64,000 nucleotides of DNA from Chalara sp. BL73. Taxonomy: Eukaryota; Ascomycota; Leotiomycetes; Helotiales. A program made the translations under genes and the position numbers. Shown here in pieces: positions 1,977 through 48,621 of the stretch. The notes under the pieces are model-generated. The model was not told where the DNA came from, ran no database searches, and worked only from the letters and a program-made list of their open reading frames with translations. The stretch covers positions 682,001 to 746,000 of the forward strand of contig CAKJVC010000061.1 of NCBI GenBank assembly GCA_918026815.1. The letters are read 5' to 3'. Position 1 is the first letter of the stretch, and every line of letters starts with the position of its first letter.

Positions 1977-4900
1977 ATGGATATTCGACTTTCACTGTCG
2001 CCGCAGCCTTTGCCAATATCGCAATTGCCCACTACACCTTCTATATCTATGCCACTGCCCCCGGAAGCTACGTACAGCTCTAAAGAAGAGCTATATGCTT
2101 CAATTCAAGCTTGGGCAGCACAGCACTATTATGCTTTTCGTATAGAGCGGTCTACAAAAAAAGGCAACAGTGCACTTACTAGGATCTTATATAGTTGTGA
2201 CCGTGCTGGGCCAGCACCGCCCGAAAACCATTCGCAAAATAGCTTACAAGACCGCAAACGCCGTACAGCTACTCGAAAAACAGGCTGTCAGTTCTCAATA
2301 ATAGCCCGTGAACAAATAGATACACAATGGGAGCTTCGCTATAGGCCTGGCAAAGAATACAGTACACATAATCAACCCCCAAGTCAATCAATTAGCTCTC
2401 ATCCAGCACACCGAAAACTAGCACAAGCAGAAATAAATCAGGCTAAATCTTTACACAATGCAGGTAAGTTTAATACTATATAATACTTTTAAAAACAAAA
2501 GGTTAATATATTTGTAGGAATTAAGCCAGGCCAAGCAATTACGTACCTTCGCGAAATGACTACTATTCCACTTCAACCGTATGATATATACAACTTAAAT
2601 GCTTCTTTTAAAAGAGAGCAAAAGCATGGACTTTCCGCAAATGACGCTTTAATTCAACATTTGAAGAACAATAATACTCACTTCAAAATCAATATTACGC
2701 ATCAAAATCAAACTCGCCATCTTTTTATTGCATATCCACAATCTATTCAGCTTGCACAAGCTAATCAAGATGTTGTATTAGTTGATAATACATATAAAAC
2801 TAATAAGTTTGATATGCCACTTCTTCATATGATTGGTAAGTAAAGCTTTATTGTGTCGTACGATTATATAGCTAAAATTTTACAGGTATTACAAGCTCGG
2901 GAATGACTTTTTCAATTGGTTTTTGCTTTCTTCCGGGCGAAACACAACAAGACTTTGTATGGGCATTTCGTTGTTTCCAAGAGCTTGGAATCAAGCCTGC
3001 AGTTGTAGTTATGGACGGTGACTAAGCTCAAAAAAATGCTTCAGAAGAAGTGTTTCCGTACGCTCCTACACCACTTTGTATTTGGCACGTTAATCAATGT
3101 GTTTTTGCCAAGTGTAAAAAAATAGTTGGGGACGAAAACTGGCCCGCATTTGAAGCTGCTTGGCGTACAGTTATTCAAGCACGTACAATTGAGGAATTTG
3201 ATAAGCACTGGCTTGAATTTCAAATTCAATACTCAACACCTAAAACTCAGCAATGTGTAACGTACTTGCAAAATGAGTGGCTAAAAAAAGGTCAAAAAGA
3301 GCGTCTTGTTGAAGCTTGGACAAGCCAATACTTACACTTTGGAATACGAGTTACTTCTCGAGCTGAAGGTGCTCACGCTTATATTAAGCGTTACCTTGGA
3401 GGCAAAAAAAGTAAAGGAGACTTATATTCGTCATGGCTACATATTGAAGCAGCAGTAATTAATCAAATTACAGCTGTATTTAACCGTACAACTATACAAC
3501 AAGACCGTATACCTATAGATATAGACAAAAAGCTATTTCAGGGTTGTTTAGGAGTTATTACTTGGCATGCATTACGACTTGTACAACGACATTTAAAGCT
3601 TGTTTCTTTGCCTTTACAGCCTTGCACAAGTAGCTTTACACGGTCAATGGGCTTACCTTGTGCACATATATGTGATATAAAAAAAGTCTACAGGTGGCCT
3701 TATTCCGTCAGACTTTCACGAGCACTGGTACTGGGACCGTCGAAGTACTTTACAGCCACTTCTTGACCCACTGCGAGCCGGTAAACAAAATACAGCTAAC
3801 TTGCGAATAGCTCGTACGGGCCGTATTCTTTCTACGAGTGAAAAGCTACTCGTAAAGCAGCCTCCTAAATGTTCAGCATGCCATAGGAAAGGGCATACAA
3901 TGAACAGCTCTAACTGTCCAATAAAGCTACAAGCATCAATTGCCAAACAAAATCAAATTCTTCTTGATATAGACATAGAAGCAAGGCAGCCACTAGCGCT
4001 TACAGCGCCTACAGCGCCCAACATGCCTGTAGCATCCCCTGTGCTTACAGCGCCTACAGCGTCCACCATGCCTGTAGCATCCCCTATGCTTACAGCGCTT
4101 ACAGCGTCGACTATGCCTGTGGCATCTCCTGTCTTTACAGCGCTTACAGCGTCCAACATGCCTGTAGCATCGTCTGTGCTTACAGCGCTTACAGCGTCCA
4201 CCATGCCTGTAGCATCCCCTGTGCTTACAGCGCTTACAGCGTCCACCATGCCTGTAGCATCCCCTGTGCTTACAGAGCATACAGCGTCCACCATGCCTGT
4301 AGCATCTCCTGTCCTTACAGCGCTTACAGCATCCACCATGCCTGTGGCATCTCCTGTCTTTACAGCGCCTACAGCATCCACCATGCCTGTGGCATCTCCT
4401 GTCTTTACAGAGCCTACAGCGTCGACTATGCCTGTGGCATCTCCTGTGCTTACAGAGCTTACAGAATCTACGATAACTGTGGCATTTCCTGTGCTTACAG
4501 AGCCTACAGAATCCATGATAACTGTAGCGTTTCCCGTACTTGCAGAGCCTATAGAGTCCACTATAATTGTAGCTTCTCCTGTATTTACAGCGTCTACAGC
4601 GTCTACAGTGTCTACTGTGCTTAAACAGCTATCCCCAGACAGGCCAGAGGTTTTAATGCAAGCCTATTTAGCTGAAAAAGCAGCCTGGCTAGCTCAGCAT
4701 TCTACTGTACGACTAACAGAGTACCGCAAGGCCAGGAAATGGTCTACTCCGCGACCAAAAGTCTTAAAAGAACAACTATTTTACATGCCTAAAGAACGAC
4801 GCGACCTTATGGGTAATATTATAGCAAATCAGGCTAATTGGACTTCTGAAGAAATTATAGTATGGCTAGATAATGAAGAAAAGAAAGAAGAGGACGAGTA

Positions 4901-5021
4901 TAATAAGCTAGAATCGGAGTTTGTAAGAAATAGCAACAAGCACACGGAAAACAAGCGTAAAGAAGTATGGGGTAGAATTGAGGAAGAGCATGCACGAGAT
5001 TCGGAGCGGTACATTCTATAA
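1977..5021 (+). pseudogene. MULE transposase, interrupted by an in-frame TAA
   Basis: Exons can be joined across clear introns at 2464-2517 and 2836-2885 (GTAAGT donors, TAG or CAG acceptors). The N-terminal part (1977-2463) resembles the FAR1/zinc-binding region of MULE proteins. The catalytic part contains LVDNTYKTNKF, GMTFSIGFCFLPGE and VVVMDGD, the usual DDE neighbourhood. A TAA at 3023-3025 follows MDGD directly, and the frame then continues with LCIWHVNQC. A SWIM-like CxnCxH motif lies near 3630-3670. A frame change follows near 3690, by small indel or an unrecognised intron. A CCHC knuckle (CSACHRKGH then C) lies near 3870-3920, followed by 15-residue tandem repeats and a charged C-terminus. 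This copy is probably non-autonomous unless the stop is bypassed. Confidence 0.75.
3990..4610 (+). repeat. 45-bp coding minisatellite in the MULE transposase
   Basis: About 13 imperfect 45-bp units each encode a 15-residue motif close to ALTASTMPVASPVLT. The last few units drift in sequence. The open minus-strand frame over the same bases is a by-product of the repeat. Confidence 0.85.
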
Positions 5022-8025: not shown

Positions 8026-9047
8026 TTAATTCTTCATAGTGTACCTATCAGCCAAGTCCCAATACTCCTCAAATCCAACAGCGGCGCACACGTCTTCGAA
8101 CTTCATTATGGTTCTTGGTGATTTGTTTTTATCTGCTAAATCTTTCAGAGCTCCTCGCATTGGTTCTATGCTTGCTGCAAGGAGTGTGAGCGGATATGCT
8201 ACACTGCAATATCCCATGCCAGCAAGTTCGGTGTATGACAGCGCCGGTGTCTTCCCACCTTCTATGACATTAATGAAGGCAGGAATTTCACGTCCTAAAT
8301 CAATTCGAGATTGCTTCATGGTGGGAAGAGTTGAAATTGCCTCGATGACAACTGCGTCAGCGCCCTCGGCGAAGAAAGCCCTGGCTCTCTTGATGGCTTC
8401 TTCGTACGAAATGATCAAGGAGTCGGTGCGGGCGAGGATGAAGATATCGGTGCCTTCGTTGCGAGCAGCAACAGCGGCTCGGACGCGAGATACAGCTTCA
8501 TCGAAGGTGATAACCTTCTTGTCCTTGGTGTGCCCACAGCCTTTCAATTAATTAGAGACCGTACTTTGAGAGATTTACTCGAGATCTTTCGACGTTTGTA
8601 GTACTCACGCTTCGGGCTGGCCTGATCTTCGATCATGATACCTGCCGCACCAGCCTTGGCATATCCTTGCACAGTTCGACGGACATTTATCTCGTTCCCA
8701 TAACCAGTGTCGCCATCCACCATGACAGGTACATCAACAACTCTGCATACTTCCAGCGTCCGCTGTACCATCTCACCAAAGCCAAGATAGCCAGCGTCAG
8801 CTAGGCCATGGGACGCACTAACGGCGTAGCCACCGAGGAAAACCATAGGAAAACCAGCTTGCTCAACAAGGCGAGCAGTGAGGCCATCCCACGCGATTGG
8901 GTGCTGAACAATTTTCGAATCATCAAAATGTGCCTCTAGCATCATCTTTCGAAGTCTGCTTGCTAACTCATTGTGCTTCGTACCACGTTGTAATGGATAG
9001 GGAGAATGGACGCCATTGCCGTTGCCGAGAGTATTCAATGTGGTCAT
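8026..9047 (-). CDS. Isocitrate lyase/PEP mutase-superfamily enzyme, lyase or hydrolase type
   Basis: Two exons on the minus strand (9047-8609 and 8540-8026) are separated by a 68-bp intron (GTGAGT donor) and give 317 residues. Splicing completes the signature KRCGH at residues 146-150. The metal-binding motif DGDTGYGN lies at 111-118 and the substrate-loop FLGGYAVSASHG at about 70-81. ARTDS and INVIEGGKTP follow. In this superfamily the Cys of KKCGH/KRCGH is the catalytic base of C-C bond lyases and oxaloacetate hydrolases; PEP mutases lack it. I therefore favour a 2-methylisocitrate/dimethylmalate lyase-like or oxaloacetate hydrolase-like role on a small 2- or 3-carboxylate. It is divergent from the fusion gene at 9647 and shares its promoter, suggesting co-expression. 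The exact substrate is unknown. Confidence 0.88.
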
Positions 9048-9646: not shown

Positions 9647-12600
9647 ATGGTCACCCAAGTCCCTCTGGCATTGTATTTATGGACCCGGTAAGGAACCTCG
9701 CAGTTTAAATCTCGAATTCGGAAATTAAAATGGAACCGCCTCTACAGAATCCACCAACAAGGGACCCGAAGCATCATGGGAGTTCCGGGCGACATGAACC
9801 TCGAGCTTCTCGACTACATCAAGGAAGTAGGTGGGCTTAGTTGGGGTATGCCAAAGGATCAAGATGAGATACCACTTGCTTAGAGTCTTGCTGAGAGATA
9901 CTCCTAGTTGGGAATGCGAACGAATTGAATGCTGCATACGCTGCAGATGGATATGCGAGGGTCAAGGATTGCCCAGGCGTCAGTGAGTAGAAAGCACCAG
10001 TATTGGGTTTGTCAAGCTGACATCTAAAGTCACAACGACCATGGGAGTTGGAGAATTGAGCGCGTTGAACGGCATCGGTGGTGCATACACGGAAAAAGTC
10101 AAGGTGATACACATTGTTGGGACGACACCCACAGAGGTTCAATTGAAGCGCCTTATGATTCATCATAATTTGGGCCCTAACCCCGACCACAAGGTAAGTA
10201 TGGAGTCAGGCATTTTGTGAATTGATGCCGACAGCAGCTGTAGGTTTTCGAGAAAATCTCGAGACATGTCCGATGCGCCCATACATGGATAGATAGTGCT
10301 GAGACAGCTCCCTTTGAGATCGATGTTAGCAATCCCAGCGGTACCCTTTGGATTTCATTGTTATTCTAACCCACTTGGTCTTCTCCAGCGAGTCATTCGA
10401 GAATGTAGCGTGAAGTCGTTACCAGTCTACATCTATGTTCCAATGGATTTTGTCCATGTTCCGGTTTCGGCGACACGCCTAGAAAGACCAATTGACTTGT
10501 CGCCGCCCGTCAACGCCTTAAATGAAAGTAAAGCAGTTCAAAGTATGCTATACGCAGTTACCACCGCCCAAAATCCGGTCGTACTGGTTGATTGTCTTGC
10601 TTCGCGCCATATAGCAGTTGAGGAAACAAGGCAACTTGTAGACCTTCTTGAGTTTCCGGTGTTTTGTACCTCAATGGGAAAGTCGATCATAGACGAGACA
10701 CATCATAGATTCTGTGGTGTGTATAATGGCGAAGTGTCATATCCTGGAATCAAGGCTGCTGTAGAATGCAGTGATTGCATTATCAACATCGGACCGCTGC
10801 TCGCGGATAGCAACACCGGAGCTCACACAAGAGAAATACGACCAACCCAGGTCATCATGCTCGAGGCCTCGAGCTGCAATGTGTGTAAACCCGAAATTGC
10901 TGCCGATTCCGCGATATTAAATTATATTTGCAGGTATTCGGCCAGACGTATACTGATGTGTATCTCTCACAGTGTAAGTACTGTCTAATCCCCCCTTTCC
11001 CAAATATATATATGTAACCAGAACATTAAGAAATGATTTACTAACTAAATCAGTGCTCCAAAAGTTCTTGGTTGCATTGAAGGGTGTGGCCATTCCCTCC
11101 GTACCCAACCCCTGCCTTCCACCAGAGCCTGTGCCCGTAGACGCCACTTCAGAAGCAATTGTTCAGTCTTGGATCTGGAAAAGGCTTGGCGACTTTTCTC
11201 AACAAGGTGATACGATTATAGCAGAATCGGGGACTGCACAGTTTGGCTTTCCTGATGCAAGATTTCGTGCAAGGGTCAAATACATCACGCAGGTCTACTA
11301 TGGCAGTATTGGATATTCGGTTGGTTGCTGTCTTGGAGCTGCCATAGCACAAAGGGAGATACAACAGGAAACAGGGGTGCAGGCTGGAAGAACAATATTG
11401 GTTGTTGGTGATGGTAGTCTACAGCTTACCGTGCAAGAAATTGGAACGATGATAAGATTAGACTTGAACCCGATAATGTAAGCTTCCGGAGATTTGCCCT
11501 CTTCAATCGCATCTCTAATATTTGTAGAATCATAATCAATAACAACGGCTACACAATCGAGCGAGCTATTCATGGCGCAGATGAATCCTACAACGATATT
11601 TCAACATGGCGTCACCAAGCTCTCTTGAACTTCTTTGGGGCCCAAAATCCAGATGACTGTAGTCGCGAGGTGAGGACAAAGGTGGAGATGGAAACTGTCC
11701 TCGGGCTCCGCCAGTACATAAATCCTAAGAATATTCAACTTCTGGAGGTCTTCATGGGAGTAATGGATGTACCCTGGCGCTTGAGGAACCAGATCAATAT
11801 CGCCAAGGCAAGAAGTCGAGAAAAGAAAGCGGCCAAAGACTACACTCTCCTGCCTGAGCAAAGTTCTACAAGTGGAAGTTCTATGAGAGGCATAAACGGA
11901 AACGCATTGGCTCCGGAGCTAGCACTGGTCGGTGGAACAGGATATATAGGGGCCATGATAGTTCCTCAAGCCCTTGCTGCTTTGAAATTAGGTCGGCTGA
12001 GCGCAGTTCGGATACTGTCGAGTCGGCCATCTAAACCCCCTCATATTCCTGATGAGTTCTCCTGGTGGACGGTGGATTACAGCGATAAGGATTCAATCAA
12101 GGAAGCTCTTGAGGGAGTCGGGATTCTTATCTCAGCGGCTGGTATGCAGATAGGTGAATCGAGCAACAAAGACAACATCATTGTGGCAGCGGCTTCTGTT
12201 GGCGTCAGAACTTACATGCCCAGCGATTTCGGCACCGACTACACACGGTCCAAATACCTTGACAACAACATGTTCTCTAAAAAGGCTGCTCATACTGCCC
12301 ATTCCAGGGCTTTGGGTCTGAAAACTGTACCATTATTCATTGGGTTGACAATGGAGAGGTCATTCCTTCGCTGGGTTGCGCGAGATGCCAACACATGGCG
12401 GGTGGTTGGTAGTCCGGATGCCACCGTATCTCTGAGCAGTGAGCACGATATTGGCAAGTTTGCTATTGAGGCAGTTCTCCACGCTTACTGGCACCCTGGT
12501 CTTACACCAGATTATGTGAGGGTTTCATCCTGTGATTTCACTATCCGGGATTACGCTATAGCTTACGAGCAAGTCCGTGGCACTAAGATCATATTTGACA

Positions 12601-12836
12601 TTGTGAATCCTGACGATGCCCGCGCTGTGTGGGAGAAGCGCAAAGAGAGCATTCCAGAGGGTATGATTGGGCCTCTTATTGGCATAATGATTTTCGATGG
12701 GACTTTTGATCAGAGCAGAGACTCTTTAACTGATGTTCTGTCGAAACAGGCCGGTGGGATGTCACTTACGTCATTTGAAGTTTATTTATCTCAGAGTGAG
12801 GACTGTCCTTGGGAGGGACGGGTCCTCGAGCTGTAA
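9647..12836 (+). CDS. Pyruvate decarboxylase-like/NmrA-like reductase fusion protein, 907 aa
   Basis: Nine exons: 9647-9687, 9748-9845, 9908-9982, 10030-10193, 10244-10324, 10389-10880, 10934-10973, 11054-11477 and 11528-12836. They splice in frame to 907 residues. Residues 1 to about 580 are a ThDP decarboxylase. VPGDMNLELLDY carries Asp29, NELNAAYAADGYAR carries Glu52, and His116-His117 follow. The ThDP/Mg motif begins GDGS at 449 and ends in NNN at 476-478, and TIER supplies Glu483. All the catalytic residues of yeast-type pyruvate decarboxylase are therefore present. Exon 9 continues without a stop through a Ser/Gly-rich linker (about 583-602) into an NmrA/isoflavone-reductase-like domain. 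That domain has VGGTGYIG at 606-613, LSSRPS after the second strand, and PSDFGTDYT. Predicted role (inference): decarboxylate a 2-keto acid, possibly aromatic, and reduce a product with NADPH in one polypeptide. An artefactual join is possible but would need a missed stop. Confidence 0.85.
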
Positions 12837-13947
12837 TGCGCCTTGGCGAGAATTCTTCATTCTGGGCTAGTATAAGTACAGATAAGTCTGGCTTAGTTTA
12901 ATAACATACTTCCCCTGGTTACGACCAATTTCATGCGACCGATTTTGGCTTATACCTGCATTTAAACTAGTAGAATAGAGATCGCAAGGCTAACACTGAG
13001 CATTACGACATTAAATCTCATGCTAAGCTGGACATCAAGCTATCATAGATAGTGTTAAAATCAGGTGTGTCTATATGTAGAAAATTCTTAAAGCCAGGGA
13101 GAAGTAGTGGTCAACTTAGCTGTTATATTTCTTGACTAAAAAGGTCAGCTACTAGATTGACTCGCTTTCTTGTATATACATCGGAACGCACGAAGAGTTA
13201 GTTCCAGTGATCTTTATCACCGTCCGTTCTGGGATCATGTGACCCAGCCTCGCACTGAGCATCCAATATTTTAGTGATGTTCTAGGACTAAGCCAGAAAT
13301 TAATTACTAGCTAAAGAACAAACATACTAATGAAATATATTTATATTTATGTATTTGAAACAGTACCTATATTGCTAAGCCTGAGAAATACTACGCATTT
13401 TTCATCTAACCTGCGATTAAGAGTACCAAATACTCAAAGTAGTCGAGTGGTGTTCTTTTGCTGATGATGTATATACAGTCTCTGCCTGTAAGTCTCATTC
13501 ACTTTAGAGAGATAGTGCTTGTAACTACTCAACAAGTAATGACTCGTCAAGCTCATAAGCAGGATGGTAGACTCTTTTCGCAAAATCTATTGGTACCGCA
13601 ACACGACGCTATCACCAGAGATGGCCAGAATGAAGGTCTCAATCCGCGTGCACATTTGAAGCATAATTAGTTTAAAGAGAGGGAAGAGTGAAAGAGCTTG
13701 ATTAATAATATAGTAGTAGAATCTTTACATATACCCTTCGTAATAAAGTTTCCGTTAGTTATATCCGGAGAGGGGCATGACTTGTGGCAGCAACCTTCTA
13801 ACAATAATCAACCTGTAATATTTCTCCAAAAAATAAATAAATTGTACAGTAAGGCTATCCTCCTCCTATAGAAATTAGGCACGCTTGGAGCACAGCACCG
13901 CGGAGACTATCATTTATGATGAATATTTGATGTTATGACGAAAAACA
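12837..13947. other. Intergenic between convergent genes
   Basis: AT-rich sequence with short ORFs only (for example 13458-13670). Two oppositely directed genes end here, so it must contain both polyadenylation regions. Nothing else was recognised. Confidence 0.5.
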
Positions 13948-15675
13948 CTAAGGCACATTTCTCCATCTTGACTCGTTATCATCAACAGCCTCCGCACCAA
14001 ACCCGTCCTCACGGCTGAATTTTCGATTTTCCCATCGAAGCACAAGACTATACACCGCTGACATGATAGAGACGTATATCAAGAAGCCGAAGCAAGTCCA
14101 CATCCCTGTGCGATAATAGGGAGCTGCCGAGGCTGGAAAGAGGCGAGTTCCTAGGAAAGAGCCGCACTGTCCTATCACCTGGAGGATGGCGAGTGCAGCT
14201 CCACGTTTTGACTGTTGACGCTGGTTGTTCAACAACCAGGTGACGTTGCATGCTGCAGCGGAAAAAAGGCCTGCAGCAGATAAGTAGACACCAATGTACC
14301 GAGGAGCAATGCCTGTGCTGGTTGCTTGTAGAAGATAACCAATAGAACCAACTAGAGAACACCCAGAGACGAAAATACCACGGCTCCTCATGTGGTCAGA
14401 CATAAAGGTGACAATAAGCACGCATATAGCCGCGAGGATATATGGAGGAGCGGAAAGACCTTGAGCATTGATGGACGAAAAGCCCATCTCTTTGATGATA
14501 ATGGGTGTAAAAACCGATATCGATGAGATTGAGACGTTGGTTGCAAAGTGCATACTCTGAACGTATTATATTAGCATACCCCTGGCGTGTTCGTATTCTA
14601 GGAATATACTTACGGCAACAATGTAATTTTTGTAATCAAGGAAGGCTGAAAAGTAATCCCTAGTATTTAACTTACGTCCTTCGTGTTCAACTTCTGGCCC
14701 TCGAGTGGCAATAGTTGTGCTCTCGATTCGTAGTCTTGCTACTTCCTTGTCTCTTCCAGTGAGAAAATTGGCCTGTAGTGGTCCGTCAACTAATAGAAAG
14801 AACAAAATAGGAACGGCAGCTATTGTAGGAGCACCCTCTACGATGAGAAGCAGCCTCCATGGATGGAGAGAAGTTTTCGCTTTCGTGATGCCATAGGCAA
14901 GCGCCCCTGCCCAGGCAGAACCGAGAGGAGAGCTAGATAAGAGAATACCGATGCGAAGCCCTGTATGAGTAAATCAATATATAAGACCTGGGAGAAACCC
15001 CACCCGGTAGCAGCCCACTAACCTAGTTGATCTCTGAAATAGAAAAATGACATGTACAAAGGAATTCCGCAAGTCATCATTGCCTCGAAGGTTCCGAGGA
15101 AGAAACGGCAAACCATCAACTGAGCCCACGTCTTGCAAGCTCCCTGACCCATGGCGGCTGCTCCCCAACACAGAAGGAGAGAGCAAGCCCAGTATTTAGG
15201 ACGGAAAACTTTCCAGGCAATGGTGGTGAACTCAAAGACCACGTAGCCAATATAGAACATGGTGAGAAGCCACTGGTACTAATCGTTGTCAGGGATATTC
15301 TACTATCGAAAAATTGTGAATTTGATACCTGAGGAGTAGAAAGCCCCATATCTCGGGACAAGCCTGCGGCGTTCGCGTTACCGATATTGGCTCGGTCCAG
15401 ATACGACAAGGTGAAGATGAGAAAGACGCTACAGAGTGTCAGGAAAACAAAATCTGATTCAGTAAAGTACGATGTTTGGGCAGCGAGCAAAACAATGCTA
15501 AAGGGGAGACATACAGAGACATGATGTGCTTGTCGAACTTCCGACGCACGCGTCGTTCTTCTTCATGGGTATAGCCAGGGGCATTTTCGAGAGCGCTCGG
15601 CTCTTTGCTGTTGGCCGACAGATTCTCAAAATGCTCCGTAGCTCCCCTCTTGACGTCACCAAGATGTGCCTCCAT
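13948..15675 (-). CDS. MFS transporter, allantoate permease/anion-cation symporter (Dal5-like) type
   Basis: Five exons on the minus strand (15675-15515, 15428-15329, 15278-15023, 14960-14614 and 14556-13948) join in frame to 490 residues. The N-terminus is hydrophilic, with HEEERRVRRKFDKHIMSL, followed by FTLSYLDRANIGNANAAGL, the hallmark first membrane segment of the anion:cation symporter family. About 12 hydrophobic segments follow, and the family motif FFLGTFEAMMTCGIPLY is visible. These plasma-membrane carriers usually import small organic anions such as carboxylates, vitamins or ureides. Here it may take up a precursor or export an acidic product. It is divergent from the Zn2Cys6 regulator at 16228. 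It lies next to the decarboxylase-reductase fusion. Confidence 0.85.
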
Positions 15676-16227
15676 AGGGACAATGGCACGGAAGAGTGTT
15701 GAATGAGGAGGTTGACTCGTGCGAAAGGGGTGTCAGTTTAGTAATCGAAATGGCCAAAGTTCTTTTCTCGCTCCTTCATCTACCAGAGCATTTATAAACC
15801 AGAGGGGTAACTGAGATATAGGAGAAGGTAAGGAGATCACTAGTGATCTTTATATATTGCAGAGAGAACTTGACTGGCCTCGCTGTGCACGTACAGCTAA
15901 TCATTGTTAGGAAAAGAAAAAAAAGGGAAACGGGGCTCTGCTAGTCCATATGTGGATGTGGAATCTGGGGTTTTGTGGAGCCTGCAGCACTAGCGAGGTG
16001 GGTTGGGGTAATAAGGTTAACTAGCGTCGGCTTCGGAATTTTCGGAAACTTCCATCCCATAGCGTCTGCGTGTTCGGAGGTGCTGGAAGTCGGAATAATT
16101 AAGGACTGGTTTTCCAGTCTCCTTTTCCGCCATGTAAACTTCCCCCCTCCGACCTGACTTGATCCTCCGCATCCTACGTCCGTGAAATCTCCTTAGAGCA
16201 TTTGCATTAACACCCCAACATTTCGAG
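15676..16227. promoter_or_regulatory. Divergent promoter between MFS transporter and Zn2Cys6 regulator
   Basis: This 552-bp interval holds both promoters. A TATATATT-like box lies near 15850 and a purine-rich tract near 15915-15930. No palindromic CGG pair was confirmed by eye. Confidence 0.45.
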
Positions 16228-19059
16228 ATGCCTACTGTCCCTCCAGCCATCCCTTCTGTCATTGTAGGACCTGTGGGCGACAACGGCAGGAGTGGAAGCC
16301 GAGAGAGGGCAACGGCCCCAGACCACAGTACGGTCTACAAGGCGTGTAACGCATGTCGAACCCGCAAAATCCGTTGCGTGGTAACCGGAGGGCACCATAC
16401 TATTTGTCAGCGTTGCCACAGGTGCGTTCTAGAACGACTGATCTTTTCTCTCGTGCTCAACTCTTGTCAGAGAAAACGTTCCGTGTGTCTTTGAGGCGAA
16501 GCGCCGTAAATACAATTCATTCAACCGCCTCAATAAGATCAACTCTAGGCGAATCGGGGAGGGGGCACATCAGCCTTTGGCAGCGGGGCCTGCGTCGCCA
16601 GAAAACATTGTATGTAATCCCGTTGCAATTTCCAAGTTACCTCATCCGTGCGCCTTAAAAGAGTCCGTTTGTATGTACTCATACGCCCGCAGCAAGAGCC
16701 ACTAGAAGACCTAGGTGTCAAGAGTTCGGCGGAGGCGTTGATATTTTTGTCGGGCTCCGTAAGAGGCGACCATTATTCGACGTCACCATTTCAGGCTTCG
16801 CAGGAAACCTCTTCATTCACTGCTTTACCGAACACGACAGGTGGCCGGCGTCAATACGCTGAACAATCTATCCCCTACAGTTTCAGGGTTTCTGCAAGTC
16901 AGAATGATCTAGTCTCAAGCGCTCAGACTACGTTCTCACTACCCCAGTGGGTTGATGAGTCTCTCAGAGAAGCCGTTGGAGCCTTCAAATGCAGTCTGTT
17001 TAGAGAAAGCCACGTTCTCCCAGAAGAAGCCCTAGAATTTGTGTCGTTCTTCTTTCATATCCTGTATCCCTTCTTTCCCTTCCTTCCTACCCCTTACTAC
17101 GAGACCATAACTAGTGGCAAGCCTTCTATCAACTTACTAAAGTCACTATTTGAGGACGATGAGGCCCTTCTTGGGGCCATAATCACCGTCTCAAGCCGGT
17201 ACCACAGTTTGGTCCGTGCCATTGGCGGGCACGAAAGGAGTCAGCAAATTCACATCAGCTGCTGGCTATGGACCCGAGGCCAATTATCAAAGGTGATCTT
17301 TGAAGGTGCGAGGCCATTGTCGCTTCTGCCCATTATCGAGGCACTTATGATACTTGCAGAGTGGGTTCCGAAGAGTATACATGCGTCCATTGAGTATAGC
17401 GAATTCACTGGCTTTCTAGGTGGTGGGAATTACCTTTCCTCAAGAGGCTATTCAAATGAGACGATACTGCAACCTGCCTTTCGAACTGATCATGTAGCCT
17501 GGTTCGTTGTCTGTGTACCTAATACTGGCTTCTACTGACACCTAGAAAGGTCATACATTGGGAATGCCTTCCTTCTCCTCCGATCAATCTCTGCAAACCG
17601 AAGGGAATGCCCTGTCTTCAAAAGCTCAACTCGATACCTGATTACACTATTCGGATGTCTGATCATGTCCCAATCACTTTCACGTCGCCTTGGTCGGTCG
17701 CCAGTAATGGGATTTGAGGATGTAGATTTGGGGCAAATTTCGAATGCATTCAGTAATCATCATCGTAGATCAACAAACCCGACTGATAGTGATTCATACG
17801 TCAATATTCTTAGTCTTGGAAGTTCTCTAGATTTCCATAATGCTTTTGTCGAATTAATGCAGCTTCTTGCACACGCACAAGAGGTGCTCCATCCGCCAGC
17901 CACTTATGATAACACAGAGATCAAAAAACCTTCTACTGAATCAAACAAGAGACTTGTCGTTCTATTGCAGCACTTTGATATTATGAATCGAGACTGGAAA
18001 GCTAAGCACACCGCTCTTTTTTCTGGTTAGGACACGGCCTGTTGGGTTGCTACCTTTATTTTCATTACTAAGATCGTCTTAGCGTCGGCCGAGGGGATGT
18101 CCGAGTTCTCAAGATTGCTGTTGGAATTCGATTATGAATACCTCCGGCTGTACGAATTCTCGACAACTCTAGGATTCTGCTTTCAGGAAGATGGATCCTC
18201 ACAGCTTGCGTCGAAACTCAGATTCGGAAAACCAGGAAGCGGGGGCGACCAAAACACTAGGGCTGGGAATTCAAACTTCCCCCCTGCCTCATTAGAAAAC
18301 TACCTTCGTCAAGCCATTGACGCAGCAGAGAGACTTCTCCATCTTATACTGGGTTTGCAATCGCTAAGAATAGGAAACTTTTTGCGATATGCCAGTTCAA
18401 GGCACTATATGAAGATTATTTTTGCTGCTGTTTTTCTGATCCAGGTTAACACGCCGATTTCCCTTATTTCGACGAGGGAGTCACTACTAATGTGGGCGAT
18501 AGGTGCTCCGAAAGAATATCCCTGATGTAGACCAAGTCTCTCTTGTTGCTACGCTTCGCGATACCATTTTTTCGCTGGAAGGTTGTACTATAGATGACGC
18601 CCATCCTGCATCGCGATATGCTTTCTTGCTCCGGGGATTCTTGGTAAAGGCTGGAGCAATGTCTGGAAATTATACGGATCTACCCAGCCATACACACAGT
18701 CTGGCTATGGATAAACAAAGTACAGCTGATGCTTCATTTCCTTCGGGTACGCTTGGCCCGCAAGATGCGCATTCTATTTATCTTGAGTACGCAGCCAGTA
18801 CATCTTTGTGTGATTTTCTGTTGACACCGCCAATAGGGATAGCAATACAACTGAGCCTGAAGATCCGTCCTATTCTGCTCATGTCAATAACCAGGACAAG
18901 GCAGAGCTTGCGCGACAGAGATATAACTATAATACAGGGCAATCAAATACTTTTCAGTTTCAGAGCATGGATATGAGTCTTGGAACAGATTTAAACATGA
19001 ATCTCTTAGACGAGGAGGGGTTTCTAAACTCAATAGTTAATCCTAGCTATAATTATTAA
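16228..19059 (+). CDS. Zn2Cys6 fungal transcription factor (gene model approximate)
   Basis: Exon 1 (16228-16421) and exon 2 (from 16471) splice through a GTGCGT intron to give the six-cysteine cluster: CNAC, RTRKIRC, then CQRC and a Cys in NVPC. The spacing is C-x2-C-x6-C-x9-C-x2-C-x6-C, followed by a basic linker (KRRKYNSFNRLNK). The middle part (16730-17500) has the fungal regulator text LPEEALEFVSFFFHILYPFFPF and DDEALLGAIITVSSRYHSL. Later exons lie around 17560-18030, 18070-18520 and 18530-19059, with a terminal acidic/Asn-rich segment ending LNSIVNPSYNY at 19057-19059. I could not fix every splice site, particularly near 16650-16800, so a damaged gene cannot be excluded. It is the only regulator seen in the window and is a candidate pathway activator for the neighbouring enzymes. 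Confidence 0.7.
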
Positions 19060-20203: not shown

Positions 20204-21197
20204 TTAACCAGCCATATTTAGATAACCCCCATCCACAACCATAGCAGTACCATGTACATAGCTTCCAGCCGGGCTTACCAAAAACAAAATAGCATCCGCA
20301 ACTTCATCGACATCTCCAATACGCTTAAGCGCCGTGATATTTGTGGCCAAAGTCCTAAGTGAAGGGTCCTTGGCGACGGCCCGCTCAAGCAGAGGCGTGT
20401 CGATAGGGCCAGGACACATGGCGTTGATACGGATCTGAGATCCCCCGTACTCGCTGGCTGTGGAGGAATTAGTTAGCACGTTTCATGAGACGCCGAGAGG
20501 TTGTAATTTACCTGCGGTCTTGGTGATTCCGACAGCGGCGAACTTGGACGCGTTGTATTCAACCGTGCCTGGTAGGGGAATGAGGCCATCGACAGAGCAC
20601 ACATTTACAATAGCTCCACGGCCGAGTGTCCGCGATCTGTACGTCCCTTGAATGACGATTGGGTCTTGTTTAAGCATGACCTGGAGAGCAGCCTTGGTGT
20701 GGTACAGAACACCCTTGGCGTTGGTGTTTTGGATGTTGTCATATGCTTCTAAGTCATTTACAGCAATGAGGCCACCGGTGGCGTAGATCTTCAAGAGCTA
20801 TGTTAACAAACGCGTGTATTATTGAGGATGATGATCTCTTACCCCAGCGGTAGTGATGCTGTAGTCGATCCTCTTGAATTTGGCGACGGCGCTTTGGAAG
20901 AAATTCTCAACGCTAGTCCAGCTTCGTACGTCGACGTGGAATGCGGTGACAGAGAATTTGGGGTTTGTGGCTACTTCTTTGGCTTGTTTTGCTGTCTCTT
21001 TGACCCCTGGCTCGTTAAGGTCTCCTAAAGCTAATCCTATGGCCCCGTAGCGGGCAAAAGCTAACGCGGTTGCCCTCCCGATTCCACTGGCTATGATATA
21101 GTTAGCCTCATTGTCTCCTGTCATTTTGACTATTTGGAGAATATTTTTTACCAGAGCCAATGACGACCGCTGTTCCTGTTACGTGTAGCCCAGACAT
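20204..21197 (-). CDS. Short-chain dehydrogenase/reductase (classical SDR)
   Basis: Four exons on the minus strand (21197-21152, 21090-20843, 20797-20512 and 20457-20204) splice in frame to 277 residues. The short first exon, MSGLHVTGTAVVIG, joins to SASGIGRATALAF to complete the nucleotide-binding G-x3-G-x-G motif. ALGDLNE ends strand 2. The catalytic region shows VNVCSVDG, then YNASKFA (Y-x3-K), and PGPIDTPLL follows. The family is NAD(P)-dependent alcohol/ketone oxidoreductases of about 250-280 residues. A usual NNAG motif appears as TTAG, which is unusual but tolerated in some members. It is convergent with the Zn2Cys6 regulator across the LTR relic. The substrate is unknown; it may tailor a hydroxyl or ketone in the pathway. 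Confidence 0.87.
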
Positions 21198-39343: not shown

Positions 39344-40650
<1,307 letters not shown>

Positions 40651-43088
40651 AATAGATGTCCGAGTCTGGTCGGCGAATTTAAAATTAAAGGAATTCGAGC
40701 AAGGAAATGAAACTTACAAGCCGACTAGCAATGTCTCAAGAAGATCTCAAATTTTGTTTTGATTGCTATGAAATCTATGTGTCGCATCGAAGCTTCGGGT
40801 TTTTGATTCCCCTAATCCGCTCCACCTGACCCGCCGCTCTAATCAGAATCCTGCCTCTAGGACGGACTTTGTTCCTCGACCTAGCATGCTGACGTTGAGG
40901 TCAACTGCTCCTGACAGAATACTTCTTCACACCTTTTAGACCACACGTGCAGACGGCAGAGATTGGAAACCAGGCATAAACTTGTTTGGCTTGATTTCAG
41001 CCAGGGGTACATTGAAAATGGTGAATACCTTTTCGCATCTAGCAGCAGCCTGTCTGACTGTGCCAAGAAGGCTCAAGGCGGCAGCCTTAAGAGATGCAGT
41101 TCCTGGTCCCTGTACAAAGAACGCGTTCAAAAGTTCCGATAGTACAGGGTATCACAGGCTATATACCCTGGAAATAAGTGCTATAATCATGCATAGGTGC
41201 CCTGAATCAAGGTTAGTACCTTATCAAATATTTAATTAATTTATTTGTAGTTACTTAACCTAAACAGTGTTTATTAGTACCTAATACATTATAGGGATAA
41301 ATACAAAATCATTGTAACGTTCTTTATTGCCTTAGGCTCTAGGAGGCACGTTGGTTGGTCCTGTATATTGAAATGTAGTGGATACTAGTTCCCCCCAGAG
41401 TAAAGACGTTACGAAGCTAGCTAAATAACTTATTCAGATAACTAAAGTATTTAAGCACAAAGTTCTTAATTATGGAAACTTATCTACTTATATAAAGCCC
41501 TCGTCATATTTAGGTCTTTAGAGTTCGCAAGCTCCAGGACTCCTGGAGTTCAAGGGACTCCAAACCGCATTACGTAATTCAAGATCCTAAGTTATCAAGG
41601 TCATCAAGATGTTGCTGCCAAGGCTTCCTTGGAACCATTACGTGTCTTGCAACAGCACGTGGTTGGCAGGTTCGTAACACTTTTGTTTAAGTTTTTAATT
41701 TATGTCTTATAAGCTTGATTAAATTAAGCATATTTAGTTACAGTATACTATAAAAGTTTAAATAAGCACTAAAGAATGGCCCAAGGACCTTCTAATCATG
41801 GTCTTTCTATGAACCTGGGTACGATACATAGTAAAATGCAGCCCCCGGCCGCCAAGACCTCTAATCTGCCGAGGTGAGAATGCTTAACCGCGGCGCCGCT
41901 AAGAAAGTAGGTCCGGGCCATTCCCGGCACTAATGATCCTTTTGTCACCCTGGCTGTGACCCCCGGTCCATACTACCTATGGGCAATAGGACGATGGCAC
42001 TATAGGACATGGGGACTTGAACGCCTCAAGTCCGGCGGCGTCGTTCCAATTGGCTGATTCTCGCAAGCAATGTCTCAAGCCACCGTATGTCTGCCGACAT
42101 TAGTCCCTTGCTGCGCGCTAGAACGCAAACACATAGAATGTCAGGATTTCACACATGAGAGCCTTAGATGTCAGGTGTAAATCAGGATCGGCAGCGCCGT
42201 AGGTTATGAGGGTGCCTACAGTTTCGGGGCCCAGGGACTGTACATACAGCTGTATCGGCTGCTCGATCCAGCTTTGCTCCGACATTGTACAGTCTTCCCA
42301 TGGTTGTACCAATAGGGAAGGTAATCGAGCCTACAAACGACGTAACAAGCTTATTGTTAAAGGTAGCTATTAAGTTCTCGAGTATGTGGATACTTCGCCC
42401 AGTGTCAAATCGTAGCTGTCAAATACTCCACGGGGTCGGCTTATTGCCCCGCGTCCTTCGACGTGCTTGTACAACCAAGGGGCTGGAGATTTGGGGGGGG
42501 GGGTGGCTGCCTGACGTAGACCAGATTATGCATATTTGCGGCGTTTTACTGAGTGCCAGAGGTCAACTACTTAGCGTTTACTGTGGTTGTAGGCCAAAGT
42601 AAAATATCCCCTTTTGTCTGGTATTATTTTCTGCGCTTTACCAATTTAGTGGCCCTCTGACCTATGGGGTACGTGCATCTCTTTTGGAGACGCTATACCA
42701 AATAAATACCCAACAAAATGCTTTCTCCCGTATAGTGCGGTACTTAGGGACATAATTTAATATACCTATATAACCACAATACTATTGCGTACTTAAAAGG
42801 GATAAAACCAGGTATGACATAATATGCGAGATATATGGCTGATGTCAATTACATCCCCTCTCTTAAACTGATCCGCAAAGTAACATTTATTAGAATTCTC
42901 TACCATATAACTCGTTGAAATGTATGTCTAACGTTATTCCCTAATGATTCAACAATCCTCTAGTAGGAAACATCAATAATCACAACTGAAATAAGATGTT
43001 TCCTCCCAAGTCTGACATGAGAAATCCGCCTCTGTCTGAATCTACAAAGAGGAACCCTCTTCACTGCGGTATTCGCATATAAGCTACA
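40651..43088. other. Non-coding and relic sequence upstream of DAHP synthase
   Basis: The left end is the DAHP synthase promoter. A minus-strand open segment at about 40937-41146 (QGPGTASLKAAALSLLGTV, then FNVPLAEIKPNKFMPG) reads like the tail of a real protein but I cannot name it, and no upstream exons were found. The middle (41220-41800) is very AT-rich. A minus-strand ORF at 42118-42312 (SEQSWIEQPIQLYVQSLG) may be another relic. Confidence 0.4.
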
Positions 43089-44927
43089 TTACAAGGAACT
43101 GCGTATTCTGAGTTGAGCGTCTTGTCGGGGTTGCCCGCCACGAGCCTCTTTAACGCAGTCTACTACGACCTCGTAGAGCCTCCCAGAGCGGATTGCGTCG
43201 TAAACGACCGTATTGTACTTTCCCACGCTGGGTGCAACCCCAGCGTATGTTTCTTCTACATCCCCCCCTATTATAGCCTCTGTGATAAATGGGACTTTCA
43301 ACTCGCCCCTGACAAATTGGTACATTTTTCTCGCAGCCAATCCTAAGACGGGGCCGGCATTTGGGATCTCGTTTATAGCTTCTGGAGATCTCACTCGCAA
43401 GTCGAGTGCTTGACATAAAGCCACGAGATGAGCTGCGGCTAGCTGCGAGAATACCTCCACGGCTTGTAACGTATATCTAGCCGAGATCAAGGCCAATGAG
43501 TTGATGCCCTGGTTGCCCATTTCTGCTGTCTGCACATGCGATCCAACAGGATTGGCGAGGAAGCCCAATTCACTGGTAAGTGCGGCGACCATGATGTCTG
43601 TTCCTTTGAAGACAAAGCTACACGACGGGTCATCGGCGACGAGATTCGGTGGAAGTCCACGATTCGTAGCCGGGTTGATGATCTCGGTGCATTGGGAGAA
43701 CAGCATTCGCCCCAAAGACTGCAGCCCAGAACGTAGCTTCTCAACAGCACTGGTAACTGCCTTGGCCTGGAAGTTTCCTCCGTGATAAATGTGCCCAGAT
43801 TCACTATCGATAACGGGATTGTCCGTCACCGAGTTGAGCTCTATCGAGATTTGTTTATACGCAAGCATAATATCTTCCAACACAGGGCCAATCCACTGGC
43901 TCGCAGTGCGGACAGAATACCGGTCCTGGCGAAGCGTGCCGGCGGCGAGATACTGATCACTGTTCACTATCCGGGAGCCGGAGAGGAAGCGGAAAATGCT
44001 CTGCGCGCTATCGATTTGTCCTGGGTGGGGACGTATCTTAGCAATGAACGGATCGAAGCTCTCATCCGTTCCACAGACGGCTTCGACGTTCATAGCTGTG
44101 AGAATCTCAGACAACATCGCTAGGTTTGTGCACTCATAAGCAGCTAGCGCAGCGACGCCTGCGGAGACTGCTGTCCCGTTGACGATGGCAAGTCCCTCTT
44201 TCGCCTGAACGCCCAGTGGCTCTAGATTGGCCTCTTCAAGTACTGCATCAGCGCGCAGCAGCCTGCGTTGCCCCGATTCACCACGAGGCCCGATGAACGC
44301 TGACACGTTTTTCTTGCCCTGTAACACACCGCCAATGTACGAGAGAGGACTCAGATCACCAGATGCCGAAATGCTTCCGCGCAGAGGTACCAAGGGCACA
44401 ATGTCCTTGTTCAGCATGGCGGAGAGTCTGTCTGTGATCTGGACGCGGACCCCGGACGCCCCCGCCGCCAGTGAATTCAATCGTACTAACATAGAGGCGC
44501 GGACCCATGATTCAGGCATACATGTTCCTCCAGCTTGATCTAACAAGAGAGGTCCAACATGGTTGGAACCTCCTTCAGAGCTGGTTATTCCAGCCATCAG
44601 AAGGGTGAACAGGCGCTGCTGAAGGTCATCGACCGCGCCCGTCCTCTGATCCGCGCTGCCACCGAATCCGGTGTTGACGCCATAGATGACTTCACCTTGA
44701 GCAAGCTTCTGCCTAACAATGTCGCTGCACTCATTAATAGCTAAGATAGCTTCTTCAGTGATGTCGACCTTGGCCAAGTAGCGAGACACGGCCACGACAT
44801 CCGGCACTGTGAGAGTGTGGGCGTCAACGCGGATCTGCCGCCTTGATGCTTCCAGTCGTTCTTGCTGGGCCACGACGAGCTCAGAGAATGACATGTCTGA
44901 CTCAGACATGTTTAGTGATCTCGCCAA
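43089..44927 (-). CDS. MIO-dependent aromatic amino acid ammonia-lyase/aminomutase (PAL family)
   Basis: An intron-free 612-residue frame. The catalytic Tyr lies in IYGVNTGFGGSADQRT (Tyr82). The MIO-forming triad Ala-Ser-Gly is at 188-190 within RGSISASGDLSPLSYIGG. SVTDNPVID, HIYHGGNFQAKAVTSA and GSHVQTAEMGNQGINSLALIS are also typical. PAL converts phenylalanine to trans-cinnamate and ammonia; related aminomutases give beta-phenylalanine. The selectivity dyad after DLQQRL is Leu109-Leu110. Plants have Phe-Leu there, fungal PALs usually His-Gln, bacterial TAL His-Leu and Taxus aminomutase Cys-Leu. The protein is about 100 residues shorter than yeast PAL at 716, with the loss at the C-terminal shielding region. 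It is divergent from cytochrome b5 at 45790. Phenylalanine is the likeliest substrate, but the reaction outcome is open. An alternative start is Met7. Confidence 0.9.
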   Translation of the reverse strand: MARSLNMSESDMSFSELVVAQQERLEASRRQIRVDAHTLTVPDVVAVSRYLAKVDITEEAILAINECSDIVRQKLAQGEVIYGVNTGFGGSADQRTGAVDDLQQRLFTLLMAGITSSEGGSNHVGPLLLDQAGGTCMPESWVRASMLVRLNSLAAGASGVRVQITDRLSAMLNKDIVPLVPLRGSISASGDLSPLSYIGGVLQGKKNVSAFIGPRGESGQRRLLRADAVLEEANLEPLGVQAKEGLAIVNGTAVSAGVAALAAYECTNLAMLSEILTAMNVEAVCGTDESFDPFIAKIRPHPGQIDSAQSIFRFLSGSRIVNSDQYLAAGTLRQDRYSVRTASQWIGPVLEDIMLAYKQISIELNSVTDNPVIDSESGHIYHGGNFQAKAVTSAVEKLRSGLQSLGRMLFSQCTEIINPATNRGLPPNLVADDPSCSFVFKGTDIMVAALTSELGFLANPVGSHVQTAEMGNQGINSLALISARYTLQAVEVFSQLAAAHLVALCQALDLRVRSPEAINEIPNAGPVLGLAARKMYQFVRGELKVPFITEAIIGGDVEETYAGVAPSVGKYNTVVYDAIRSGRLYEVVVDCVKEARGGQPRQDAQLRIRSSL

Positions 44928-45789
44928 AGAATAGTAAAGTGCCGATATAAAATAAGAGTGATTGTTTGGTTGGTCGAGTGTAGTATTGTGGTGCTAGGGA
45001 GATACGGAGCAACTTTATCAGAGGCCATTTGCTTGGGATAGTGCTTTATAATATATTAATGGTTGCTTCCTCTTCCAGCCATTGCACAAATCCTTACGAC
45101 CTCCGGGGTATCAGATTGGACCCCATGAAGTTTGTTATCGGCGCTGTGCGTGCTAAATGCTGATTCATAATGATAATCCACTATTGCACTGATTACAAGA
45201 GCGTTACTACTATAGACCGTGTGATTTTTGGCAAATATTATCCAAATCTGTACTTTTGAGAGGGTTAGGTATGCGTTATCCATGATGTTGAGTCTACGCT
45301 TACCTGCAGGAGTCACGCTACCCGTGGCAAGGTTTCGACAATTCCGCGTGCTACTGAGCCATTATAGAACAGACATGAGCCTTGCCCGTACTGGATGCAT
45401 TTAGAAGATCTAATCCTAGTAGCGATTGTAAAAACAAGAATATACATGGTACAATGAAACCAGTCCAGCTTTAGCGAGTTTTTTCTTGCAGTCCCCTGAA
45501 ATAATGATATCGAGGCAGCCACTTATGTCAAGCCTCTAAAGACGGGCTGCATTACCATCCATTGGCGACTGATCATGCGAGAGACACACCGCAAGTACCG
45601 TACTGATTACCTGTTACATGGGAGCGGGGTTTCGGCCCTGGTTCATGAGGGACTTCTAGAAAAATCCCAACAAGATAAATCAAGCAACTGGTTCGCATTC
45701 CATTTCATGTAAACTAATAGTTATCCAATAACGAGAACCTGCTAAGGAAACCTCCTAAACGTCATAGCTTTCCCCGAGGCGATTTTACC
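44928..45789. promoter_or_regulatory. Divergent promoter between PAL-family gene and cytochrome b5
   Basis: This 862-bp region contains no supported gene; the minus-strand ORFs at 45056-45522 are not convincing. It holds both promoters and suggests coordinated expression of the pair. Confidence 0.45.
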
Positions 45790-46397
45790 ATGACGACCTT
45801 CAGCTGGGAGGAGATTCAGAAGCACAACACCGAGGACGACACTTGGGTTGTTTTGCACGGCGCCGGTAAGTTGATTTATAAGCTGGGTTTTCGAGCAATG
45901 GAACTGACATCCGCGAAGTCTACAGCGTCTCAAAGTACCTAGAGGACCACCCAGGGGGGAAAGATCTCCTACTCGAGGTAGCCGGCCAGGATGCCACCAA
46001 GTTCTTCGAGGAGGCTCTCCACTCCGGAGATGCTCGCGACATTCTGCCGAGGCTGAAAGTGGGAAATGTCAAGGAATATCAGAGACTAGACGGAGCGTCC
46101 AGCCCCGTCTCGATCTTGGGGCCGCAGGCGGCCGAGAAACGGGAATCCCGAGCGAATATCGTGATGTCGGTGACTGCGCCGCTCGCTGTGACGACGTTGC
46201 TTGGGTATCATCGCGATAAGCTGTCCAGCATTTGGTCAGCCTCGTTACAAAGTTTGACCGGCGCAGATCCCATATGGTTCTCGGCGGTGGTCGTCCTGGT
46301 GTTATCTTTCTGGGGTCTTTGCATGTGGGCGAGTTACATTATCTATGTCGACTATGGTAACTTGAAAAAGTTCCCGTCTCGCATTCGAATTGAGTAA
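45790..46397 (+). CDS. Membrane-anchored cytochrome b5-like protein
   Basis: Two exons (45790-45865 and 45919-46397) surround a 53-bp intron with a GTAAGT donor and a CTGAC branch. The product has 184 residues. The b5 fold is clear: FSWEEIQKHNTEDDTWVVLHG, then VYSVSKYLEDHPGGKDLLLEVAGQDATKFFEEALHS. The haem ligands are the His of HPGG and the His of EEALHS. A C-terminal hydrophobic helix (WFSAVVVLVLSFWGLCMWASY) near residues 146-170 would anchor it in the ER with its haem domain in the cytosol, next to P450s and their reductase. Neighbouring P450 genes make an electron-donor role to one of them plausible. It could also serve a desaturase encoded elsewhere. Confidence 0.88.
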
Positions 46398-48012
46398 GGA
46401 GAACCGAAGCTCAGGTAGATATAGTCTCACCTGCACGAACATGCATCAAATACATTGGATTTTTTCGGGACTCAGAATCGCCCTTGTAACGGTGTGACGT
46501 GTCGGGCATAGGTTGACGTTGGGGGTCTAAGATTGCACAGGGTGGTCAGACACGCTTTTGAGCAGTGAAAACAACAGTATTGCGGAGTCTTGGCATAGGC
46601 AGCCTAGTGCATATAGCATTGGTTTTTGTAATACTAGCGTCATATAGTGATCTCGTAATAAAAATATATAAATACTCGCAGTGTATAGTACTATACTGTA
46701 CTATAATAGTAGTATACGTCACCATGGTTGGTGTTACAAAAGTTTAATGCATTATCTTTGCGTTGATATAATTATTATTTTATAAAAACTTTACAGGGTC
46801 GTAAAATAAGCATTGTAAAACGCGATGAACAAGGATGTGAACAACCGCCGTGCGCAGTACGTAATATTGCTACAGTGTAGTATAATACGAATGTTAGGTT
46901 GCCAATTTAATCCTGGCAAAGATTATATTGCGCGGTATATGGGACAGGGGTTCAATGGCCGATATACCGCGATATCGTTTTGCTTACACTGCTTTTAAGG
47001 CAGCTATTTAAGCTTAAAAAAAAGCCGCCGAGGAAAGAGGCGAAAAAAAAGCATCCCTGTTTGGCATGTTGCACGCTAGGGTTACATGAACCATCGGGGT
47101 ACTTCAACCAGTCTATTATTAAGCAATATTCGCCATGGTATTTGTTAACACGATCTTGTTAGCGGAGTAAAATGGGGTGCAATTAGCGTCCACTAAGGAT
47201 TGCCTTTAGTAGGGCGTAGTTTCAATGACTGTACTTCAATAATTAACCCTTATCTAACTTCCCCATCAACAACCCTTCATGTTCAGCAGCGAACTCTGGT
47301 AGGATAAATCACTATTGGTGTTTATACGAAAACACCGCATATGCAGGGTTCTGGATCCATCTTTTGCTATCGCTTGTTTCGCACATCTTGTTTCGGTTTT
47401 TGGTTATGGCATATATGCAGTGTAACTGTATGCAGTGTAACAATACGAAATGTGACTGCCATGCTTCAGCTGATTAAATTCACAATTATAGGCTAATCGA
47501 GTTTTGAATGCGCCTTGTTGGCAAATTCCTTGTAGCTGATCAATGCTACCCTATTAAGGAGAGATTTAAGTGGGTTCATAACAAACCAGGGCTTCGGGTA
47601 AGCCCGGCTTTTCTAGCTATTACCCTGGAAATGGAGGTTGTACTCTTTATTATTATTATTATTATTCCTTTTAACGTGCTGTATCAGTCAAGGACTATGT
47701 AGCACGGCCGGGGCACTCGGGCCTAGCAATTCGGTTGGGGTGTTGGCAATATATACAAAGTCTCGAGAGTAAAAAAGAAAGAAGCAGGAGCACAAGTACC
47801 CTACAAGGACTGTACTAGCCAATATTAATAGACTAGTAGCCTTAACACACTTCTTCCAAAAAACCTCTCATATATTCCAGTGAGTGTTGGGGATCGAGTC
47901 CCAATAAAAAAGAGTCCTTCCTTCACGTCCGTCGATCCTTTCGTTCCCTACACGTCTTCCTTCACTATAGCCTTCGCCTTGTCGACTTTTCTCCGCGATC
48001 TTTCCTCCGGCC
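46398..48012. other. Non-coding, AT-rich
   Basis: No supported gene. A TTA/ATT microsatellite lies at about 47647-47667. Sequence at 47860-48010 is pyrimidine-rich and leader-like, immediately before a short exon-like segment. Confidence 0.45.
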
Positions 48013-48033
48013 ATGGGTATATATTTATCGAAG
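48013..48033 (+). pseudogene. Possible first-exon fragment of an ARF-like GTPase gene
   Basis: The 21 bases encode MGIYLSK and end at a plausible GTACGA donor. The seven residues resemble the myristoylated start of fungal ARF-like GTPases, and the preceding 150 bp look like a fungal leader. No second exon with the GTP-binding loop was found downstream. The evidence is very thin. Confidence 0.2.
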
Positions 48034-48621
48034 GTACGAGCCGCCCAAATGCTTGTGTTGTAGTCTTGTCGCACGTGTAACTTCCACCGTTCTTCCAGTT
48101 CACTTCCTCAGCCTTTCCACGTTGTGTGTTCCGAAACTCGTATAGTAAACAGGTACAAACGATCGAAAGCTAGTTCGAAAGCAGCTAAAGTCGTGTTTCA
48201 ACTCGTTTTTCAGTGTTGTAGAGGGTTTATTGTTGAATCGAAGTGATACCTCTCATAGAAAAATCTCTGGCCTTGGCGTGAAAACTCTGCTCTTCCCTTC
48301 ACTTTGGCCCCAGAAATCGTCCTACATCACTGTTTGGGCTGAATCTCGGCTCTGGAATCGTTATTAAACTGCCTCAGGAGAGTAATATTGATTCCAGGTT
48401 CGTAGAGGGCACCGCATACAGGTGTTCAGCCGTCGCCCTCCTGGTTGTACTCTTTACATGCTCTAAAATCTCACTGTTCTTCATCCATACGCTCGCCATA
48501 AAAAAAAATATCATATTTCTTAAACTCAGTATAAAATATATAATGGTATAAAAGCTATAATAATCGACTTTTTTAAGGAGGTGATTAATAATGCATTATA
48601 GTGTTTTAAAAAGATTACTAA
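48034..48621. other. Non-coding
   Basis: Nothing recognised. An A-rich run lies near 48500. Confidence 0.4.

Follow-up and report, generated by a model that had tools for sequence, protein, structure and literature searches.

A single-frame fusion of a pyruvate decarboxylase-type enzyme with an NmrA-like domain, predicted to act as a bifunctional decarboxylase-reductase

Results

Structure of the fused gene

The window analyzed here, a 64,000-nucleotide stretch of DNA (contig C55, positions 682001-746000 of a 58.7-Mb genome in 199 contigs), carries a forward-strand gene in which a pyruvate decarboxylase (PDC)-type half is followed, in the same polypeptide, by an NmrA-like half. A lyase gene lies on the other side of its start, and further candidate metabolic genes lie downstream. 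The parts of the fused gene are as follows.

9647..12836, + strand: whole fusion gene; nine exons, 907-residue protein (splicing model)
9647-9687, 9748-9845 and 9908-9982, + strand: exons 1-3
10030-10193, 10244-10324 and 10389-10880, + strand: exons 4-6
10934-10973, 11054-11477 and 11528-12836, + strand: exons 7-9
9647..11813, + strand: PDC-type ThDP 2-oxo acid decarboxylase half, residues 1-567; Pfam TPP_enzyme_N, M and C
11407..11561, + strand: GDGS (449-452), INNNG (475-479) and YTIE (480-483), ThDP/Mg and catalytic-Glu motifs, split by intron 8 (11478-11527)
11814..11912, + strand: linker, residues about 568-600 (~33 residues), inside exon 9
11913..12836, + strand: NmrA / PCBER-isoflavone-reductase-like NADP(H) half, residues 601-907 plus stop (PF05368, 1qyc)
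11931-11951, + strand: GGTGYIG (residues 607-613), a GxxGxxG NADP motif
12282..12284, + strand: K724, aligned with Lys134 of PCBER (1qyc)

In the splicing model, the nine exons join in frame to encode 907 residues, followed by a stop codon at 12834-12836, and all introns are of the GT..AG type and 47-80 bases long. Introns this short, together with the fungal names of the closest relatives, point to a filamentous fungus. The end of exon 2 (9845) was picked by homology to PDCs; an earlier donor for this exon, which gave a 902-residue model, was dropped because it left a 5-residue gap relative to yeast PDC, whereas the donor at 9845 supplies the missing residues. Retention of intron 6, translated as a control, leads to stop codons. 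Exon 9 is 1309 bases long, lies within a 472-codon stop-to-stop frame and alone encodes residues 473-907 and the stop; the join between the two domains therefore needs no splicing assumption. Thus, the sequence-only reading of this DNA, which had described nine in-frame exons, a last exon open for more than 400 codons, a full set of PDC-type catalytic residues and a fusion with an NmrA/isoflavone-reductase-like domain in one polypeptide, was borne out on each of these points: exon 9 is open through both parts, Pfam places both domains in one protein, and the catalytic residues are those given below.

The decarboxylase half

The three Pfam domains TPP_enzyme_N, M and C occur in order in the N-terminal half, all above their Pfam cut-offs, as in PDC and indolepyruvate decarboxylase-type enzymes, and yeast PDC (1qpb) matches this half with E 3.7e-134; both the Pfam run and the yeast match were made with the earlier 902-residue model. 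The residues D29, E52, H116-H117, GDG 449-451, N476-N477 and E483, which we take to be the catalytic and ThDP/Mg sites of PDC-type enzymes, are all present. Their conservation was read from the query aligned with 120 hits, a set that excludes P0121 (a fused metagenome fragment, described below). D29, E52, H116 and H117 are invariant across the clade, sister and yeast rows, with N477 and E483 falling in a gap in one clade row and D450 in one sister row; in the 74 remaining rows, Glu takes the place of D450 in 7, N477 is replaced in 2 and E483 in 1.

Residue 393, which aligns with Ala392 of yeast PDC (1qpb alignment) at a position that presumably counts for substrate choice, is Gln in all 19 clade rows (query included), in 20 of 21 sister rows and in 11 of the other 74; none of the seven yeast rows has Gln, and all seven have Ala. 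Because the residue matching Ala392 is Gln, the substrate of the fusion is perhaps not pyruvate. The scores against TIGR03393 (indolepyruvate decarboxylase; 397.2 bits, cut-off 946) and TIGR03394 (197.9 bits, cut-off 554.5) are both below the cut-off, and the protein is therefore not assigned as an indolepyruvate or phenylpyruvate decarboxylase. Yeast PDC and indolepyruvate decarboxylase resemble the fusion in domain family and catalytic residues but lack a C-terminal reductase, yeast PDC differing further by the Ala noted above.

The NmrA half

The C-terminal half matches PF05368 (NmrA) with 49.9 bits (cut-off 27; E 4.4e-13; profile positions 6-272 of 298). Nine PDB sequences match it with E <= 0.001, the best being phenylcoumaran benzylic ether reductase (PCBER) 1qyc (29 bits, E 3.6e-6); the other eight are two A622-type isoflavone reductase homologues, GuPTR1, four entries of eugenol synthase 1 and an isoflavone reductase. 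Two features of PCBER and isoflavone reductase are both present, namely, the GxxGxxG motif and the lysine aligned with Lys134 of PCBER, which we take to be catalytic; this residue is also Lys in P0121. Grouping with the PCBER/isoflavone reductase (IFR) subfamily, as opposed to other NmrA-like proteins, is tentative, the best PDB match reaching 29 bits and the structural model being of low quality except in part of the Rossmann core. Unlike this half, the members of the PCBER, isoflavone reductase and eugenol synthase group are separate plant proteins about 310 residues long, and they match it at no more than 29 bits.

An AlphaFold2 model of exon 9 was built from 33 alignment rows; the NmrA half is spanned by the query and P0121 alone. 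The mean pLDDT of the model is 57.9: the PDC C-terminus is good, model residues 131-200 in the Rossmann core (about 70 residues) are of moderate confidence at 69-83 per block, and most of the remainder is poor. Among the 50 Foldseek matches shown, PLR, pinoresinol reductase and PCBER entries occur amid other Rossmann proteins; the TM-scores, normalized by query length, are 0.17-0.24, and the top match is a respiratory complex subunit. The likeness of the model to PLR/PCBER entries would lend at most weak support to the grouping.

The join between the halves

The linker includes the segment SSTSGSS (residues 584-590). A script scan found none of the donor sequences GTAAG, GTGAG, GTATG or GTACG in 11781-11960, and a scan of 11701-13200 for four polyadenylation-like hexamers gave one match, at 13010, past the stop codon. 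GC3 is 0.50 for residues 1-565, 0.37 for residues 566-600 and 0.49 for residues 601-907, and the GC content of the introns of this gene is 0.41; by GC3, a crude measure, the 35-codon linker stretch looks less coding-like than both domains. Just before the NmrA half, M591 is a possible separate start in the window protein, and P0121 has no Met there.

A second fused sequence

P0121 is a JGI metagenome fragment of 267 amino acids on a 2371-base contig, 58% identical to the window protein (154 of 267). Its residues 1-68 are a PDC C-terminus, followed in one frame by a linker at the same position, GGTGYIG and more of the NmrA domain. It differs from the window protein in that most of the PDC half is absent from the fragment, the linker is 5 residues shorter and diverged, though still in frame, and the end residues diverge. 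In a word-based search in which 3815 candidates were scored, P0121 was the sole protein to match the NmrA half with E <= 0.001. Since an independent fragment at 58% identity keeps the same join, the fusion goes beyond chance, and P0121 is the decisive evidence that it is natural; a 42% difference, together with a gap of whole residues in the linker, is hard to reconcile with a sequencing error or the chance loss of a stop codon.

The PDC part of P0121 is 65% identical to the window protein and 66% identical to the best Fusarium stand-alone proteins. In the tree of the decarboxylase half, both fused sequences fall in an unresolved clade of 20 rows, P0121 filling 13% of the columns. The fusion may have come first and then been lost, or may have arisen within the clade.

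Distribution and stand-alone relatives

The whole-protein search gave 487 matches, and none of the 120 listed has an NmrA domain. The best of the listed decarboxylase relatives is P0001 from Fusarium solani (589 amino acids; source name 'Pyruvate decarboxylase 1'), a stand-alone protein that is 71% identical across 63% of the query, the part that corresponds to the decarboxylase half; it shares the catalytic residues and the Gln at 393 but ends 32 residues from the PWRL motif, without an NmrA domain. Counted from PWRL, the tails of nine of the ten closest decarboxylases are of 32 residues or fewer and that of the tenth, P0004, is of 64 residues, again without NmrA. The linker of P0121 looks like the tails of some stand-alone relatives (P0003, for instance, has STNGVNGA), although as evidence such short Asn/Gly stretches prove little.

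Residues 565-907 were also compared with proteins of 499-1587 residues, a range set to suit a fused protein; among the 7993 candidates scored, no full-length fusion was found at E 0.001. The three protein searches gather candidates by shared short words and may miss distant relatives. For bacterial relatives of exon 9, 31 pattern matches in GTDB contigs gave no confirmed case. Within the same genome, further matches to the decarboxylase half lie on contigs C69, C11, C9 and C18, and five weak matches to the NmrA half reach at most 31 bits; none of 97 NmrA matches lies beside any of the four decarboxylase places, the nearest being about 57 kb off on C18, the NmrA counts being lower bounds (107 of 133 candidates scored). 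Orthologues are not always two separate genes, the finding that the sequence-only reading had named as speaking against it: the metagenomic relative P0121 is fused, while NmrA is absent from the 120 listed decarboxylase relatives. Its statement that no enzyme of this architecture had been described agrees with our literature search, in which no description of a PDC-NmrA fusion was found in sources lying mostly outside subscription journals.

Among the 120 listed relatives, at least three bear annotations of extra domains other than NmrA: P0034 has PF01494, P0037 has PF01565 and PF02913, and the 1447-residue P0065 has several. These may be real fusions or merged gene models, and they advise caution with annotation taken by itself. 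The window fusion is unlike them in that its join lies within one exon.

Discussion

Proposed function and alternatives

With both domain families and the catalytic residues observed in a single frame, and with a second natural sequence fused in the same way, the gene probably encodes one bifunctional decarboxylase-reductase that handles its own decarboxylation product. The N-terminal half would bind ThDP and Mg2+ like pyruvate and indolepyruvate decarboxylases and would strip CO2 from a 2-oxo acid; the product would be an aldehyde, or an acyloin if ligation takes place. Carried on a flexible linker, the C-terminal half would bind NADPH through GGTGYIG and reduce this aldehyde or acyloin by means of its PCBER-type lysine. 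A catalytic role of the NmrA half, its action on the decarboxylase product and the hand-over of an aldehyde or acyloin to it, which the sequence-only reading had also put forward, are steps that we infer. In PDC structures, the C-terminus sits near the active-site mouth, and a reductase attached there would therefore be kept close to the released product; by this analogy, a hand-over between the halves may be guessed at. PCBER/IFR-type enzymes are known to reduce benzylic ethers and enones or other conjugated systems rather than simple aldehydes; an aryl acyloin or a conjugated aldehyde would therefore suit the reductase better than acetaldehyde. Against the bifunctional reading stand the number of known members (two, one of them a fragment), the lack of NmrA in the 120 listed decarboxylase relatives and of a full-length fusion among the 7993 candidates, the merged models that occur in this family, the weak PDB matches and low-confidence model of the NmrA half, and the dip in GC3 at the linker.

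The NmrA half could instead be a non-catalytic NADP(H) sensor that tunes the decarboxylase to the redox state, as Aspergillus NmrA and human HSCARG are NADP(H) sensors. The Pfam family is NmrA itself, which includes such sensors, and the likeness of this half to catalytic members is weak; by name, however, the PDB matches at E <= 0.001 belong to the PCBER, IFR and eugenol synthase group (the name GuPTR1 being unexplained), and both fused sequences have Lys at the position of the catalytic lysine. A sensor is considered unlikely. Somewhat more improbable is a fusion of two enzymes that work on unrelated substrates and are joined for co-expression without any hand-over. Nothing links the two substrates, and the preference of PCBER/IFR-type enzymes for benzylic ethers or enones over simple aldehydes would agree with such an arrangement, but the join has been kept despite a difference at 42% of aligned positions, suggesting a benefit from the linkage.

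An artefact, in which two neighboring genes are read as one because a stop codon was lost, the sequence contains an error or the gene model is wrong, so that there would be two proteins or one that is decaying, is very improbable. The short tails of the closest decarboxylases (up to 32 residues from PWRL in nine of ten, 64 in P0004), none with NmrA, would be expected of separate genes, and merged models do occur among the relatives; against this, the join lies inside a single open exon, P0121 is an independent fused homologue, and a search of 3815 candidates at E <= 0.001 gave no protein in which the NmrA half stands alone. As judged from sequence, the PDC-NmrA fusion looks like a real, very rare gene and not a misread one.

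If the bifunctional reading holds, one natural chain would join two kinds of enzyme that each attract interest as biocatalysts, ThDP decarboxylases and PCBER/IFR-type reductases, and would serve as it stands for the two-step production of reduced aldehydes or chiral acyloin-derived products. The architecture also predicts that the substrate of the reductase is the product of the decarboxylase, which opens to direct test the role of an NmrA-like domain that could not otherwise be assigned. With two members found, in the window and in P0121, the family offers a rare case for the origin of enzyme fusions.

Neighboring genes and other features of the window

The following genes and domains were noted around the fusion and farther along the window.

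8026..9047, - strand: isocitrate lyase/PEP mutase-superfamily lyase, two exons (hand-made model), PEP_mutase in both ORFs
about 13948-15732, - strand: MFS-type transporter (by eye)
about 16186-19059, + strand: Zn2Cys6-type regulator (by eye)
20204-21178, - strand: short-chain dehydrogenase (by eye)
39518-40474, - strand: class I DAHP synthase
43089-44993, - strand: aromatic amino acid ammonia-lyase
45882-46397: cytochrome b5 domain
49838-50740 and 53100-53936: P450s

The lyase gene is divergent from the fusion and about 600 bases from its start, and among solved structures its product matches 4iqd (E 1.5e-42) and 2,3-dimethylmalate lyase 3fa3 (E 5.2e-42). It is a possible supplier of a 2-oxo acid for the fusion. 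A lyase-decarboxylase-reductase route, in which this 2,3-dimethylmalate-lyase-like enzyme would supply the 2-oxo acid and the fusion would pass the resulting aldehyde or acyloin from ThDP to the PCBER-like NADPH domain, is put forward as a tentative and rather doubtful proposal; to our knowledge, no fungal example of so compact a route of lyase, decarboxylase and reductase has been described.

The fusion and its neighbors could be a small metabolic cluster. In the MFS-type gene, the one ORF searched (13948-14565) gave no Pfam domain, nor did the two ORFs searched downstream in the Zn2Cys6-type regulator. Downstream of the Zn2Cys6-like motif, seen by eye in 16186-16494, one frame holds three successive open stretches (16618-17538, 17539-18030 and 18031-18525) with single stop codons between them; these stops may lie in short introns, or the regulator gene may be broken. 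Farther along, the genes in 39518-53936 are a possible aromatic-compound cluster. At the other end of the window, the open frame at 3681-5021 consists of many degenerate repeats of a unit like ALTASTMPVASPV, is open on the other strand as well and is minisatellite-like.
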